A stretch of DNA of 52,079 nt from the NCBI GenBank assembly GCA_003152315.1, contig PLZV01000005.1:1-52079 (forward strand), written 5' to 3'. Positions within the stretch are counted from its first letter, which is position 1, and each line of letters begins with the position of its first letter. Positions 7,334 to 39,653 of this stretch are shown piece after piece. Below the pieces are notes generated by a model. The model was given only the letters and a program-made list of their open reading frames with translations. It did not search any database and was not told the DNA's origin. The stretch is from Verrucomicrobiota bacterium. GTDB lineage: Bacteria > Verrucomicrobiota > Verrucomicrobiia > Palsa-1439. Position numbers and translations under genes: made by a program.

Positions 7334-8149
7334 ATGGATCGCGAGACGTTGATTGCTGATCTGTCGGGAAGACGAAATCGATTGCGGGTGACGGGCGTGG
7401 ACCGCGTTGAGTTTTTGCATGGCCAGTCCACGAATGACATCCAGCGGTTGCAACCCGGCCAGAGTTGCTACGCGGCGTTCTTGAATGCCAAAGGTAAGAT
7501 GCGCGGGGAGGGACAGGTGATTTGCCTGGGTGACGCATTTCTTTTGGAAGTGAGCACCGGGCTGGCACCGTCGCTGGAGAAGTTCATCATCACGGAAGAC
7601 GTGACCATTGAAGATGTGAGCGCCTCGATGGGCGAATGGCTTGTGGTTGGCGAAGAAGTTGGTGAGGTGCCGCCGAAGTCCGAGGTTTTTCGGCATCCAC
7701 TTGGCTGGGGCGTTATCACTTCGAGCCCGATGACGGCGACGATTGGCGAGGAGATTTTGGAAGTGCTTCGTATCGAGGTGGCGGTGCCGAAGTGGGGCGT
7801 GGACATGGACGAAAACTCGATTCCCAATGAGGCCGGTCTCGAAGCGCGGGCGATCAGCTATGACAAAGGCTGCTACATCGGGCAGGAAACCATCGCGCGC
7901 ATCAAGACGTACGGGCATGTGAACCGTCGGCTGGTGCAGATCGGCCTTGCAGGAGAGAGCGTTCCCGCCCATGGTGACAAACTTCTCGTGGAGGGACGCG
8001 AGGTGGGGCAGGTGACCAGCGCGGTCCGTTCATCGCGGCTTGGCAAACCGCTGGCGCTCGGGTATGTTCGGCGCGAGTTCGCAACGGTGGGAGCCAAACT
8101 CAACTGGAACAAGGAAACGGCGGAGGTCTTGAGAGTATGCGGAGAATGA
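7334..8149 (+). CDS. ygfZ: YgfZ-type folate-binding protein
   Basis: The protein belongs to the GcvT-like YgfZ family, folate-binding factors that help repair or maintain Fe-S enzymes such as MiaB. The diagnostic KGCYIGQE motif with its reactive cysteine lies at residues 178-185. The N-terminal part has the family pattern RVEFLHGQSTND. At 271 aa it is in the family range. The 3' end overlaps the start of the cyclophilin gene by 13 bases. Confidence 0.9.
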   Translation: MDRETLIADLSGRRNRLRVTGVDRVEFLHGQSTNDIQRLQPGQSCYAAFLNAKGKMRGEGQVICLGDAFLLEVSTGLAPSLEKFIITEDVTIEDVSASMGEWLVVGEEVGEVPPKSEVFRHPLGWGVITSSPMTATIGEEILEVLRIEVAVPKWGVDMDENSIPNEAGLEARAISYDKGCYIGQETIARIKTYGHVNRRLVQIGLAGESVPAHGDKLLVEGREVGQVTSAVRSSRLGKPLALGYVRREFATVGAKLNWNKETAEVLRVCGE

Positions 8150-8727
8150 TTGGATTGATCGGTTTGATGGCAACGGTATTTCTACTGAAAGGAACAACCC
8201 TCATGGCGGCGGATACGGATCAGGTGGCGGTGGTCGAAACGAAGTTCGGCAAAATGGTGATCGAGTTTTATGACAAGGATGCGCCGAAGACTACAGCCAA
8301 CTTTATTAAGCTCGCGAAGGATGGCTATTACAATGGCACGACATTTCATCGCGTAATCCCCGGCTTCATGATCCAGGGCGGCGATCCCAACAGCAAGAGC
8401 GGGGACCGCAGTACGCACGGCACGGGCGGCCCCGGCTACACGGTCGAGGCTGAGATCAAGCGCGACCACAAACGCGGCACGGTGGCCACGGCGCGTACCG
8501 GTGGTCCGTCCAACCCGGAGAAACGCTCCAGCGGTAGCCAGTTTTTCGTCAACGTCAAGGACAACAGTTTCCTCAACGGTGATTACACGGTATTTGGTAA
8601 CGTCATCGCCGGCATGGATGTGGCGGACAAGATCGTGGCTGTTCCGCGGGACGGAAACGATAATCCGAACGAAAAGGTGGACATGAAAGTGACCATCACG
8701 ACGCGTGCGGAAGCGTTGAAGAAGTAG
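8137..8727 (+). CDS. Secreted cyclophilin-type peptidyl-prolyl cis-trans isomerase
   Basis: A signal peptide (MRRM... then a hydrophobic core ending ...TTLMAA) precedes a single cyclophilin domain with FHRVIPGFMIQGGDP and a SSGSQFFV segment, the usual active-site strands. It probably assists folding in the periplasm. GGAGG at 8122-8126 is 10 bases upstream of the ATG at 8137; a second ATG at 8146 overlaps the ygfZ stop as ATGA. Translation is likely coupled to ygfZ. A cluster of palindromic repeats follows the stop. Confidence 0.9.
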   Translation: MRRMIGLIGLMATVFLLKGTTLMAADTDQVAVVETKFGKMVIEFYDKDAPKTTANFIKLAKDGYYNGTTFHRVIPGFMIQGGDPNSKSGDRSTHGTGGPGYTVEAEIKRDHKRGTVATARTGGPSNPEKRSSGSQFFVNVKDNSFLNGDYTVFGNVIAGMDVADKIVAVPRDGNDNPNEKVDMKVTITTRAEALKK

Positions 8728-8924: not shown

Positions 8925-9146
8925 ATGACTCTAACGGAAATCGCCGTTGCCTTGGAGCGGCTGGGGTGTCCCCGTGAGAAATCGGCGGCGATGGCCTCCC
9001 AGCTTGATCGTCGCGCCCGCATGGATGCAGAACGCAATGGGACGTCGTACGAGGCCGCCCTGGGTCGTCTTTTGGGTCTGATGGCCCAAGGGTGGGCTAC
9101 ACAAGCTTACCAGCCCAGAAATGGCGAAAAAGCCACCCATTCTTGA
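8925..9146 (+). CDS. Small hypothetical protein upstream of a PEP-CTERM gene
   Basis: A 73-aa soluble protein with no recognised domain. It is rich in Arg and Ala, with segments LERLGCPREKSA and LLGLMAQGWATQ. Both segments recur in a broken copy at 10285-10458, which also precedes a PEP-CTERM gene. The repeated association supports a real, or once real, gene, or else a repeat unit. It starts with ATG, without a clear ribosome site. Confidence 0.45.
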   Translation: MTLTEIAVALERLGCPREKSAAMASQLDRRARMDAERNGTSYEAALGRLLGLMAQGWATQAYQPRNGEKATHS

Positions 9147-9230
9147 CCTTTTCGCCCTTGTTTTGTCACATTTGCAGGCCAATCTGGGTCTGCAAAAGAG
9201 ATTGCGGCGCTGGTTGCAAAGGTGAGACGA

Positions 9231-9287
9231 AATAAAGTCAAGAAAAGTCAAAAAAAGTCTTGCATTAAAAGCGCTAATCTCTATGAT
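9231..9287 (+). promoter_or_regulatory. Sigma-70-type promoter with phased A-tracts for PEP-CTERM gene 1
   Basis: TTGCAT (9260-9265) and TATGAT (9282-9287) are separated by 16 bases. Directly upstream, three GTC steps at 9237, 9247 and 9257 are each separated by A-rich runs of exactly 10-base period, expected to bend DNA or act as an UP element. The whole arrangement recurs before the gene at 10676 (TTGCAT, 16 bases, TACGAT), which supports function. Confidence 0.7.
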
Positions 9288-9310
9288 GGCGATTGGAGAA
9301 GCAAACAAGA

Positions 9311-9329
9311 GCCCGCTCGCGAGGTGGGC
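9311..9329 (+). promoter_or_regulatory. Conserved 5'-leader hairpin
   Basis: The 19-base sequence GCCCGCTCGCGAGGTGGGC folds as a GCCC/GGGC stem with an inner CT/AG pair and a CGCG loop. It lies between the promoter and the ribosome site of the PEP-CTERM gene. It is base-for-base identical at 10629-10647 before the second gene, although the surrounding leader varies. A role in translation or stability is inferred. Confidence 0.5.
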
Positions 9330-9358
9330 GTAACAAATAGAAGAGGGGAGAATAGGCG

Positions 9359-10138
9359 ATGAGTAAATTGGTAAAATTCACGGGTATTCTAGCTGTGGCT
9401 ATCTTTGCCGCAGCACAAGCGCAGGCGACTTTGGTTGCTAGTGACGACTTCAATGCTTACTCAAACGGTCCGTTGGTGGGCAACGTGGGATCGGCTTGGG
9501 TGGCCCACAGTGGGACGACACCCAACAACGTCTTAAACCAGCAGGATGTTGTCACTGACCTAAACAGTCAGGACGTCAACCTCGGGCTCAGCGGCTCGCC
9601 GCATTCCAACGATGTGCTCTATGCTGGTTTTGACGTGAACCAGACTACCATGACGGCCCCGGCCGCCTCGTATTTTGCTCACTTCAAAGACGCCTCGACA
9701 TTCAACTTCTTTGCAAGGACGTGGGTGTCGAACTCAGCCCCAGGAACCGTCATGTTCGGAATAGCGAACGGCGGCGGAGCAGCCGTGTTCGGTTCGGCTG
9801 TGGCTACCGGAACATGGAACAGACTCGTCATTGAGATGGATCAGACAGGTCCTGCTATGGTATGCTCGCTATATCTCGGCCCAATTAATGACTCAAATAT
9901 AGCGGATTTTTCTCTGGTTGCCGCAACGGATGTTCCTACCCTGGCTAATGTTGCCATTTCTGCGTTTGCCCTCCGCCAAGCCTCGTCTTCGACAGGGGCG
10001 GGGACCGAGTTGATCGACAACCTCTTGGTTGGTACCACATTCGGGGATTCAGTGGTTCCCGAGCCATCCTCGGTCGCGCTCGTCGGCGCTGGCTTGCTTG
10101 GTCTGATGGCGATGCGCCGTCGCAGCCGCCGCTCATAG
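9359..10138 (+). CDS. PEP-CTERM sorting domain protein 1
   Basis: The 259-aa exported protein has a signal peptide (cleavage likely after AAAQAQA, about residue 23) and a 190-residue Ser/Thr/Asn-rich mature part beginning with a SDDFNAYSNG segment. It ends in a PEP-CTERM tail: VPEPSSVALVGAG, a hydrophobic helix, then MRRRSRRS. Such tails are recognised by exosortase; no exosortase is in the window. AGAGGGGAG lies upstream of the ATG. It has its own promoter, leader hairpin and terminator. The mature region is not similar to that of the next PEP-CTERM gene. Confidence 0.88.
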   Translation: MSKLVKFTGILAVAIFAAAQAQATLVASDDFNAYSNGPLVGNVGSAWVAHSGTTPNNVLNQQDVVTDLNSQDVNLGLSGSPHSNDVLYAGFDVNQTTMTAPAASYFAHFKDASTFNFFARTWVSNSAPGTVMFGIANGGGAAVFGSAVATGTWNRLVIEMDQTGPAMVCSLYLGPINDSNIADFSLVAATDVPTLANVAISAFALRQASSSTGAGTELIDNLLVGTTFGDSVVPEPSSVALVGAGLLGLMAMRRRSRRS

Positions 10139-10164
10139 TTCGCAACCATACGGTTTGCTTCTCA

Positions 10165-10204
10165 CGGGTCGTCCTGAGAAATCAGGGCGACCCGTTTGCT
10201 TTTT
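10165..10204 (+). terminator. Rho-independent terminator with GAAA tetraloop
   Basis: A 13-bp stem (CGGGTCGTCCTGA / TCAGGGCGACCCG, one T-G pair) closed by GAAA spans 10165-10194, followed by TTTGCTTTTT. An identical hairpin follows PEP-CTERM gene 2 at 11394. Confidence 0.92.
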
Positions 10205-10236
10205 GACGCGTAAAGTTGATCTCGAGTGGCGCAATT

Positions 10237-10267
10237 CCTTATAAGACTTGGCGGTGTCCTTATAAGG
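10237..10267. repeat. Paired CCTTATAAG boxes, 21 bases apart
   Basis: CCTTATAAG occurs at 10237-10245 and 10258-10266. The second copy is the perfect palindrome CCTTATAAGG. A start-to-start distance of 21 bases is two helical turns, as for two dimers of a DNA-binding protein on one face. It lies between the terminator of PEP-CTERM gene 1 and the broken small gene. Function unknown. Confidence 0.4.
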
Positions 10268-10284
10268 GCCGTAACTCGATCGGG

Positions 10285-10458
10285 CTGGAGCGACTTGGCT
10301 GCCCACCCGAGAAATCGGCGGGGCCGGTGGCATCCCACCTTCGCCGCGACCGCAAAGGGGGGAACCCCCTCATAAACGGAGCCTCCTTGACGCATCTGTT
10401 GGGCCTGATGGCGCAAGGCTGGGCGACACAAGGCTCACGGTCAGAAAAAGACGAATAA
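10285..10458 (+). pseudogene. Broken copy of the small gene at 8925
   Basis: The reading frame contains LERLGCPPEKSA and LLGLMAQGWATQ, matching the protein at 8925-9146. The N-terminal part is replaced by unrelated sequence, no ATG is present, and the middle has diverged. A TTG at 10216 could open the frame, but the sequence it adds is unlike the other copy. It occupies the same place before a PEP-CTERM gene. Confidence 0.6.
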
Positions 10459-10551
10459 AGGCACCAGTTGTTGGCCGTTTCGCGCTTGTTTTGTCACATT
10501 TCCAGGCCAATCTACGTCCACGAGAGAGATTGTGGCGCTGGGTGCGAAGGT

Positions 10552-10604
10552 CATCCAAAAAAAGTCAAGAAAAGTCTTGCATTTAAAGCGCTAATCTCTA
10601 CGAT
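10552..10604 (+). promoter_or_regulatory. Sigma-70-type promoter for PEP-CTERM gene 2
   Basis: TTGCAT (10577-10582), 16 bases, TACGAT (10599-10604), preceded by A-tracts and GTC steps. The spacer is almost identical to that of the promoter at 9260, including AGCGCTAATCTC. This conservation between otherwise unrelated genes supports the call. Confidence 0.68.
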
Positions 10605-10628
10605 GGCAACTGGAGAAGCGAACAAGTA

Positions 10629-10647
10629 GCCCGCTCGCGAGGTGGGC
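10629..10647 (+). promoter_or_regulatory. Conserved 5'-leader hairpin, second copy
   Basis: Identical 19 bases to those at 9311-9329, in the same position between promoter and start codon of PEP-CTERM gene 2. Confidence 0.5.
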
Positions 10648-10675
10648 AAACCTAGTAGAGAAAGTGGGAGGGTAC

Positions 10676-11368
10676 ATGAGAAATCTTACCAAGATTATGA
10701 CGGGGATGGCGGTGCTGGTATTTGCGATAACTCAAGCGAACGCGGGCACGATTGTTTTTTATTCGTTTGACACAAACACGTACGTGGGAGCGTCAGGGAC
10801 ATATCTGGCAACCACGAACATATGGCAGCACACGGCGACGCTTGGATCCAGTCTGAGTTCATTGACCGTGGGACCGGGCATCCCCAATAGCGGGACGGTG
10901 GTTGCCGGTACTGCCTTAAATGAAAATGCGACCACGGCACCATTGAGCACGTTTTCGAGTTCATTGAGTTCGACCGGCTGGACGAATAACCAAGCGTATT
11001 ATCAGTTTACGCTGGATGCAACCGCCTACTCAGGTGTGGTTGTGAGTTATGCACTGAATCGGTCGGGCACGGGACCCACAGCGAACGACTTCCAATATAG
11101 CACTGACGGCGGAAGTACTTTTACGGATTTCGCTTCCCTCACCTCGCCAGCCTCGTTTAATGTATACACGAACGATTTAACCGGCGTCACGGCCATCAAT
11201 GGCGATTCGACTGTCGTCTTCCGTATTTACGGGACTGGCGCTACGTCAGGCGCAGGGACGATGCGCATCGATAACTTGACGATTGATGCCGTTCCCGAGC
11301 CATCCACTGTCGTATTGGTGGGCGCGGGAGTGCTCGGTATGGTGGCGATGCGTCGTCGTCGCTCGTAG
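10676..11368 (+). CDS. PEP-CTERM sorting domain protein 2
   Basis: The 230-aa exported protein has a signal peptide starting MRNLTKIMTG and ending ...TQANA. The mature part is rich in Thr/Ser/Gly and predicted to be beta-stranded, and the tail is VPEPSTVVLVGAGVLGMVAMRRRRS. The ATG at 10676 is preferred to an upstream GTG at 10664 because GGGAGG lies just before it. The signal peptide and tail resemble gene 1, but the mature cargo does not. Promoter, leader hairpin and terminator are shared with gene 1. Confidence 0.88.
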   Translation: MRNLTKIMTGMAVLVFAITQANAGTIVFYSFDTNTYVGASGTYLATTNIWQHTATLGSSLSSLTVGPGIPNSGTVVAGTALNENATTAPLSTFSSSLSSTGWTNNQAYYQFTLDATAYSGVVVSYALNRSGTGPTANDFQYSTDGGSTFTDFASLTSPASFNVYTNDLTGVTAINGDSTVVFRIYGTGATSGAGTMRIDNLTIDAVPEPSTVVLVGAGVLGMVAMRRRRS

Positions 11369-11393
11369 TTCTCCTTTAGTAGTTTGCTTCTTA

Positions 11394-11433
11394 CGGGTCG
11401 TCCTGAGAAATCAGGGCGACCCGTTTGCTTTTT
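11394..11433 (+). terminator. Rho-independent terminator with GAAA tetraloop, second copy
   Basis: The 30-base hairpin at 11394-11423 is identical to that at 10165-10194 and is also followed by TTTGCTTTTT. It ends PEP-CTERM gene 2. Confidence 0.92.
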
Positions 11434-11489
11434 GACGCCGGGCGTCAAGTTCCCTTGGCTTGAATCATTGATCCACGATCTGGTATAGG

Positions 11490-38629: not shown

Positions 38630-39343
38630 TCATCGGGATGACTTGCATCGACGGACGGTCGCTAGCAGGACGGCGAGGCCCAGGCCGGCCAACGTCAGCG
38701 TCCCCGGTTCGGGCACTGCCGCGAAACCGATCATATGGTACGTATCGGTCGGCTGCCAGCCCTCGACCTGCACTTGGAATTGGCTGAATGGCACCGTCAC
38801 CGTCCCGCTGGAATAGGTTTGCCCATCGATTATCCATGTCACCAGACCGGTTCCGGACACCGCGATCGTCACCTGGTTTGTCTTTTGCGCGACGATGCCA
38901 AAGGGAATCAAGGGTCCGCTTTGCGTACCGGATTGCGTGATGGTCAGGGCATCAGGTTGAAAATTCCACCAGGTCATGTACAAGCCAGTAAAAGACGTAA
39001 GATCCAGATTCGTCGCTTGTCCGAGGGGGATCAGGTTGAACTGAAAGGACCCATCGTCCGTGGAGCTGCCGGGTCGCAAATCCAGCACTGTTTTGAAGGT
39101 GAACGTGGAGCCCCAAGTAAAGACTTGCGTGCTCCGCACGGGCTGCCCGTGCAGGACCACTTCATTCCCATTCGTCGTGGCCGGACTTCCCTGCGAATCC
39201 GGCCAACTACTATTCTGTGGGAATGGCAGGTCTTGCCAGGTCGTGGATTGTCCGCGGGTTGGTAGCGACCAGGCAAGCATTGACAACAACGTAATGGCGA
39301 TCCAGAGCGACTGCATGCGTTTGTGATTCATGAATGTGTTCAT
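38630..39343 (-). CDS. PEP-CTERM sorting domain protein 3
   Basis: A 237-aa exported protein. The signal peptide is MNTFMNHKRMQSLW..., cleaved probably after TRGQS or just before. The mature domain is beta-rich, with TYSSGTVTVPFSQFQVQV near its end. The tail is VPEPGTLTLAGLGLAVLLATVRR followed by basic residues. AGGAGAAGCC directly precedes the ATG at 39343. It does not share the promoter or leader of genes 1 and 2. It sits among decayed repeats. Confidence 0.85.
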   Translation of the reverse strand: MNTFMNHKRMQSLWIAITLLSMLAWSLPTRGQSTTWQDLPFPQNSSWPDSQGSPATTNGNEVVLHGQPVRSTQVFTWGSTFTFKTVLDLRPGSSTDDGSFQFNLIPLGQATNLDLTSFTGLYMTWWNFQPDALTITQSGTQSGPLIPFGIVAQKTNQVTIAVSGTGLVTWIIDGQTYSSGTVTVPFSQFQVQVEGWQPTDTYHMIGFAAVPEPGTLTLAGLGLAVLLATVRRCKSSR

Positions 39344-39653
39344 GGCTTCTCCTGTTTGGTATGTGGGCATGCTGAGTTCGGTCGATTCGAGGGTAGTGTG
39401 GTCCAGAGGGTTGTCTTCGCTGTAACACGTACAGTTGACAGAGCGCTCGCAACGCTCACAGGGCCGCTTGCTCCGAAGCCTATGCTAAACAAGGCTTCCG
39501 GGTAAGTCCAGCCGAAAACTGCCAGCACCATTCAGCAGGCTCTTCCGTGACGCAAGCGGAAAGCGACCACCGTCCGACCCCAAACACGTCGTCAAAATCG
39601 ACCCGGCTAAAAACCAACGGAAGAACCCGCGGCGAAAGGGACACAAGGGCAGG
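39344..39653. other. Gap between PEP-CTERM gene 3 and a GNAT remnant
   Basis: No gene supported; overlapping frames on both strands lack family features. It contains the upstream region of PEP-CTERM gene 3 and, at 39630-39660, a short repeat (GGCGAAAGGGACACAAGGGC) shared with 29315 (inverted) and 41863. Confidence 0.4.

Follow-up and report, generated by a model that had tools for sequence, protein, structure and literature searches.

Exosortase (EpsH)-dependent sorting of PEP-CTERM proteins, as described by Haft et al. (2006, PMC1569441), is the closest known counterpart of the locus examined here. As in that system, the C-terminal tails score above the Pfam cut-off, the N-termini are signal-peptide-like, numerous genes stand singly behind a long upstream region, and exosortases are encoded in the genome; unlike in that system, flanks are common to genes of unrelated cargo, and a leader motif, GCGAG, is found instead of the proteobacterial motif. 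In Proteobacteria, PEP-CTERM genes are under PrsK/PrsR/sigma-54 control (PMC1569441), and an RpoN-dependent PEP-CTERM gene is reported in another paper (PMC9850573). Upstream regions outside their class were left unexplained by Haft et al. (PMC1569441).

We analysed a window (the whole stretch of DNA, 52,079 nucleotides) from an uncultured Verrucomicrobiota bacterium whose own genome, a 4.9-Mb assembly, is labelled G000; W1 and W2 denote units 1 and 2 of the window. As under PrsK/PrsR/sigma-54 control, a common cis signal lies upstream of many PEP-CTERM genes in one genome, but here the conserved promoter looks sigma-70-like by eye (TTGCAT, 16-nt spacer, TATGAT) and it is the leader that carries the common signal. 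Gene conversion, or concerted evolution, acts on tandem paralogues. The locus resembles the outcome of that process in carrying near-identical segments (the terminators) beside strongly diverged ones, but the diverged part is here an unrelated protein family and not a diverged paralogue.

Two adjacent PEP-CTERM units and their flanks

The units occupy positions 8925-10209 and 10276-11438 and are adjacent, with colinear direct repeats throughout both (Table 1). A sequence-only reading of this stretch had described two neighbouring units with a common promoter, leader, sorting tail and terminator around unrelated mature proteins, and this description was confirmed by direct-repeat, blastn and blastp comparisons. 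The upstream regions are 80% identical over 266 nt (E = 2e-50, blastn), far beyond chance. Between the units, 36 nt of the small ORF are repeated at 81%, a further direct repeat spans 107 nt (79%), and the A-tract with the promoter extends over 71 nt (90%); the corresponding values are 32 nt (84%) for the leader, 68 nt (79%) for the sorting tail and 57 nt (98%) for the terminator. Within the leader repeat lies a 19-nt hairpin, GCCCGCTCGCGAGGTGGGC, which starts at 9311 and 10629 and has the same letters in both units. The terminator folds into a perfect 14-bp stem closed by a GAAA loop, at -27.8 kcal/mol and with z scores of -6 to -8 relative to shuffled sequences, and is followed by a T-run. 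It had been called identical, which is true of the 32-nt stem-loop, but one base differs over the 57 nt. The signal peptide had likewise been counted among the common parts, but the two are only loosely alike (46 of 65 nt).

Table 1. Features of the locus, with positions in the window and the basis for each
Feature	Position	Strand	Basis or remark
Peptidyl-prolyl isomerase (PPIase)-like gene, upstream neighbour outside the frame	8137..8727	+	Conserved beside small ORF in G010, G009, G004, G008
Small ORF, 73 aa, bystander gene	8925..9146	+	Single match each in G010 (83% aa), G004, G009, G008
A-tract (AAAAGTC repeats) and promoter-like site, unit 1	9239..9287	+	Sequence; 90% identical to unit 2; conserved in G010, G009
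Promoter-like hexamers, unit 1	TTGCAT 9260-9265, 16-nt spacer, TATGAT 9282-9287	+	Sequence
Leader hairpin, unit 1 (GCGAG at 9319-9323)	9311..9329	+	Identical in unit 2; MFE fold
PEP-CTERM gene 1, 259 aa	9359..10138	+	Pfam PF07589, 26.9 bits, above cut-off
Cargo 1, predicted concanavalin-A-like jelly-roll domain	9428..10054	+	AlphaFold2 pLDDT 92.9; lectin-type fold matches
PEP-CTERM sorting tail, gene 1	10055..10123	+	Listed among the genome's PEP-CTERM matches
Intrinsic terminator, unit 1 (stem-loop 10164-10195)	10153..10209	+	98% identical to terminator 2; fold z -6
Relic of small ORF without start	10276..10458	+	49% aa identity to 8925-9146; no ATG
A-tract and promoter-like site, unit 2	10556..10604	+	TTGCAT 10577-10582, 16-nt spacer, TACGAT 10599-10604
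Leader hairpin, unit 2 (GCGAG at 10637-10641)	10629..10647	+	Identity to unit 1; MFE fold
PEP-CTERM gene 2, 230 aa	10676..11368	+	Pfam PF07589, 29.9 bits, above cut-off
Cargo 2, putative CBM/reelin-like beta-sandwich domain	10745..11290	+	AlphaFold2 pLDDT 67, about 80-90 in C-terminal half
PEP-CTERM sorting tail, gene 2	11288..11359	+	Listed among the genome's PEP-CTERM matches
Intrinsic terminator, unit 2 (stem-loop 11393-11424)	11382..11438	+	Likeness to terminator 1; fold
GCGAG hairpin GAGCGTTGCGAGCGCTC	39441..39457	-	Upstream of third PEP-CTERM gene (38630-39343, - strand)

We rejected the small ORF as a component of the frame, which the earlier reading had made it: it is a conserved neighbour gene with one match per relative, and its second copy, in unit 2, has decayed to an ATG-less relic. 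Its protein matched no family in Pfam or NCBIfam. Several genera of the family retain the gene for this 73-aa product (8925-9146) behind that for the PPIase.

A frame reused across the genome, as had been proposed, is also rejected for the long flanks, as just two copies are present: outside these two places, none was found in the 4.9-Mb assembly. The earlier reading had itself named flanks unique to the pair as grounds for refutation, and for the long flanks this is the outcome. The terminator element, too, has two copies only in the whole genome. A profile of five leaders, run against all PEP-CTERM upstream regions, detected beyond the pair only the promoter part of C26:2857 (E = 6e-4). Aligning all PEP-CTERM upstream regions, the check suggested by the earlier reading, gave no common long frame but brought out the short leader motif GCGAG. 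The interpretation of the pair as an export frame with swapped cargo is partly supported.

Both proteins pass the PF07589 and TIGR02595 cut-offs with a PEP motif, a hydrophobic helix and a basic end at the C-terminus, and their N-termini, MSKLVKFTGILAVAIFAAAQAQA and MRNLTKIMTGMAVLVFAITQANA, are signal-peptide-like as read by eye. The genome has 54 PEP-CTERM matches and three exosortase genes (PF09721 at C29:6069, C3:46841 and C3:71709; best E = 8e-55). We infer that both proteins are secreted and sorted. On the established PEP-CTERM model (PMC1569441), each gene would most likely be transcribed singly from its own promoter, with its own 5' leader and intrinsic terminator; the product would be exported via the signal peptide, and the PEP-CTERM tail would then be recognised by one of the exosortases of the genome. 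The sorted product may be a sugar-binding-like beta-sandwich displayed on the cell surface.

Cargo domains

From its structural model, cargo 1 can be assigned with confidence to the concanavalin A-like superfamily fold: the model matches legume lectin, calreticulin and TtX122 (E about 1e-6 to 1e-5, TM about 0.5), and the window domain itself matched no family in Pfam. The assignment of cargo 2 to a CBM/reelin-type beta-sandwich is of lower confidence; its model (pLDDT 67) matches CBM4/22/29 and reelin repeats (E about 1e-5 to 1e-3). These folds suggest that the cargos may bind polysaccharide. Relatives of cargo 1 are often found in tandem in long open frames of 700-1000 aa across the class (L203-L226), so the domain is used beyond short PEP-CTERM proteins.

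No blastp match was found between the mature regions of the two genes at E 0.01. When the cargos were concatenated into one query and searched against 384 genomes of the class, separate homologue sets were obtained, with nearly all matches on one side of the join. Comparison of the two family alignments by hhalign joined a 13-column terminal strand only (probability 3.5%); a C-terminal DN-containing strand is present in both cargos. The claim that the mature proteins are unrelated is borne out by the separate homologue sets, by the hhalign result and by the different best fold matches. Common descent of the cargos is not supported by the models, which predict beta-sandwiches of different type; as the cargo 2 model is of moderate quality, a very remote homology may nevertheless exist.

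Module histories and the origin of the pair

In the congener G010, the order of the locus is PPIase, small ORF, leader, cargo 1, three opposite-strand genes, leader, cargo 2 and nucleotidase, and cargos 1 and 2 are respectively 51% and 45% identical to those of the window. The three opposite-strand genes (L111:2433-7918) lie between PEP-CTERM units that adjoin in the window. A copy of the small ORF was detected before W2 and not before G010 unit 2. Over about 105 sites in five sequences under selection, the unit-1 leaders of the window and of G010 are 0.94 identical, and that of W2 reaches 0.85-0.86 with either of them versus 0.73 with G010 unit 2; the leaders of the two G010 units are 0.78 alike. 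The W2 signal peptide shows the same ordering (0.76 to G010 unit 1, 0.60 to G010 unit 2). Terminators are 0.92 alike between W1 and W2 versus 0.80 between the two G010 units, where the sequences differ and the stem is kept. The sorting tail of W2 resembles those of W1 and G010 unit 2 to the same degree (0.78 each) and does not discriminate between histories. In G009, another congener, a cargo-2-like gene occupies the unit behind the small ORF. Just before the nucleotidase gene of G009 (L112:4927-5056) lie a PEP-CTERM tail remnant and a related terminator, a decayed unit.

Frame and cargo have different histories, because cargo 2 of G010 has another leader and another signal peptide. As judged from these identities, the 5' frame of unit 2 is a derivative of the unit-1 frame; this copying apparently predates the split of G000 and G010, because the W2 leader lies at the same distance from both unit-1 leaders, that of W1 and that of G010, with the order of events not fixed. 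The terminator comparison points to a separate, more recent event that made the two near-identical.

The account that we favour, and consider rather probable as a whole, is non-allelic recombination between adjacent exosortase-sorted units, with GCGAG as the likely common control point of most PEP-CTERM genes in G000 and G010. In an older event, a copy of the 5' region of unit 1 (small ORF, promoter, leader and signal peptide) would have been placed before cargo 2, and in a separate later event both terminators would have become almost identical. The frame would thus be modular in evolution, and the ORFs read beside the pair gave no hint of machinery devoted to exchange; for the shared flanks, recombination of the ordinary kind among tandem paralogues is enough. 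The pair could instead descend from one gene that was duplicated whole and in tandem and whose mature domains then diverged very fast, with flanks and tail held by constraint, as the tandem position, the common order of the modules and the secreted beta-sandwich nature of both cargos, each with its C-terminal DN-containing strand, might suggest. We regard this as improbable: the cargos form separate families across the class, with an hhalign probability of 3.5% and different fold neighbours, and G010 already holds both of them at 51% and 45% identity, its cargo 2 with the other leader and signal peptide.

There may also have been no exchange at all, the two being ancient neighbouring PEP-CTERM genes with similar flanks on which gene conversion, confined to the flanks, acted in this lineage. 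The likeness that the flanks show even in G010 (leaders 0.78, terminators 0.80) would fit such conversion, as would the window terminators (0.92), which are much closer than those of G010, but the extra small-ORF copy and the unit-1-type signal peptide of unit 2 go beyond what converting short flanks can explain. Tract length is the main difference from recombination between units, and we hold conversion confined to flanks to be the less likely, though by no means negligible, reading. Hardly credible, by comparison, is a mobile gene-cassette system in which the inverted repeat behind each gene serves as a recombination site and a recombinase captures cargos. An almost identical 57-nt inverted-repeat element does stand behind each gene, but, set against integron-type cassettes with their attC-like site and integrase, this repeat takes the fold of a textbook intrinsic terminator (14-bp perfect stem and T-run); it occurs only twice in the genome, the G010 terminators at the locus differ from it in sequence while retaining the stem, and no recombinase was recognised, by reading rather than by profile, among the ORFs read beside the pair.

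Other PEP-CTERM genes of the genome are mosaics of a comparable kind. Of 1431 PEP-CTERM pairs, 7 are similar upstream but not in their proteins, and in one of these the similarity comes from homology of an adjacent gene; among control genes this holds for 13 of 61,776 pairs, with segments of 28-95 nt. In the clearest mosaic, C5:278562 has 319 nt of promoter region in common with C5:299801 (88%) and its cargo in common with C5:317397 (85% over 798 nt). C34:2839 and C38:50706 have the same tail and terminator and different cargo; C33:130743 and C61:36315 have the same cargo and different flanks. No further copy of any tested shared flank was found in another 1.25 Mb of sequence, so we rejected the idea that they are dispersed repeats. 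The upstream match of C25:33390 and C45:33589 was rejected as a frame swap, as the neighbouring gene C25:32348 is homologous. A near-identical 30-nt promoter segment is common to C5:278562, C5:299801 and the sequence on the 3' side of C5:317397 (L027, L052, L053); within it lies a perfect palindrome, CAGAACGTTCTG, which is a probable operator.

A leader motif upstream of PEP-CTERM genes

What most PEP-CTERM genes have in common is no long cassette but a short motif in the leader, GCGAG. First spotted by eye in G000, it is the most enriched pentamer in the PEP-CTERM upstream regions of both G000 and G010. Within 180 nt, GCGAG is present in 32 of the 46 PEP-CTERM upstream regions of G000, versus 10 expected (P = 6e-12), and in G010 in 29 of 35, versus 7.8 expected (P = 5e-14). 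Control upstream regions carry it in 29 of 136 cases and, over a 1.2-Mb sample from which genome-wide specificity was judged, in 89 of 456 (about 20%; P = 7e-12 by Fisher's exact test). Among G010 upstream regions unlike any PEP-CTERM upstream region of G000, GCGAG is still found in 13 of 19 (P = 2e-5). Its conservation in aligned G000/G010 upstream regions (14 of 22 sites versus a background of 39%, P = 0.017) is modest, and it is not significant in G009 (7 of 19) or in other genera of the family (5 of 18 upstream regions).

Complementary arms of at least five Watson-Crick pairs enclose GCGAG at 10 of 47 sites in G000 and 7 of 36 in G010, where 1.3 would be expected in each case when 3' flanks are shuffled among sites; such arms are found at three of 100 control GCGAG sites. 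No other pentamer is enclosed by arms as significantly as GCGAG (18 of 88, P = 4e-10), and about a fifth of the GCGAG sites have them. When a fixed loop geometry is imposed over all GCGAG sites the pairing signal is weak; when 3' flanks are shuffled and a threshold is applied, a subset of sites stands out clearly. In the best promoter-like matches, the distance from the -10 hexamer to GCGAG falls into two classes, 6-9 nt and 25-35 nt. Some genes thus have the motif close to the predicted start of the mRNA, with no room for a 5' arm, and others have it within the leader, so the hairpin is not universal. Hairpin arms vary too much to be aligned reliably by a sequence aligner. At the gathering threshold, no Rfam family matched the window, and at E<=1 the 16 leader loci gave only a tRNA.

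A second sequence, GGAGAAGC, is enriched too, in 8 of 46 upstream regions of G000 and 9 of 35 of G010 (about 0.2-0.3 expected), and consists partly of Shine-Dalgarno-like sites near ATG. It is found next to ATG and also near predicted mRNA 5' ends, for example at 9295-9302 of the window.

Judging by how GCGAG is enriched, where it lies and the pairing around part of its sites, our leading guess is that it acts as a shared control signal for exosortase substrates. More tentatively, and with somewhat more doubt than belief, we suggest that GCGAG in the 5' leader, displayed at part of its sites in a hairpin loop, is an undescribed control element acting at the RNA level, by which the exosortase substrates of this Verrucomicrobiota lineage would form a single regulon, and that PEP-CTERM genes are reshuffled from promoter-leader, cargo and tail-terminator modules. 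PEP-CTERM proteins are very diverse and have little homology past the tail, and reassortment of promoters, cargos and tail-terminators would offer a concrete route to that diversity. GCGAG is a testable candidate for a co-regulator signal of exosortase substrates outside Proteobacteria, a question that was open in 2006 (PMC1569441).
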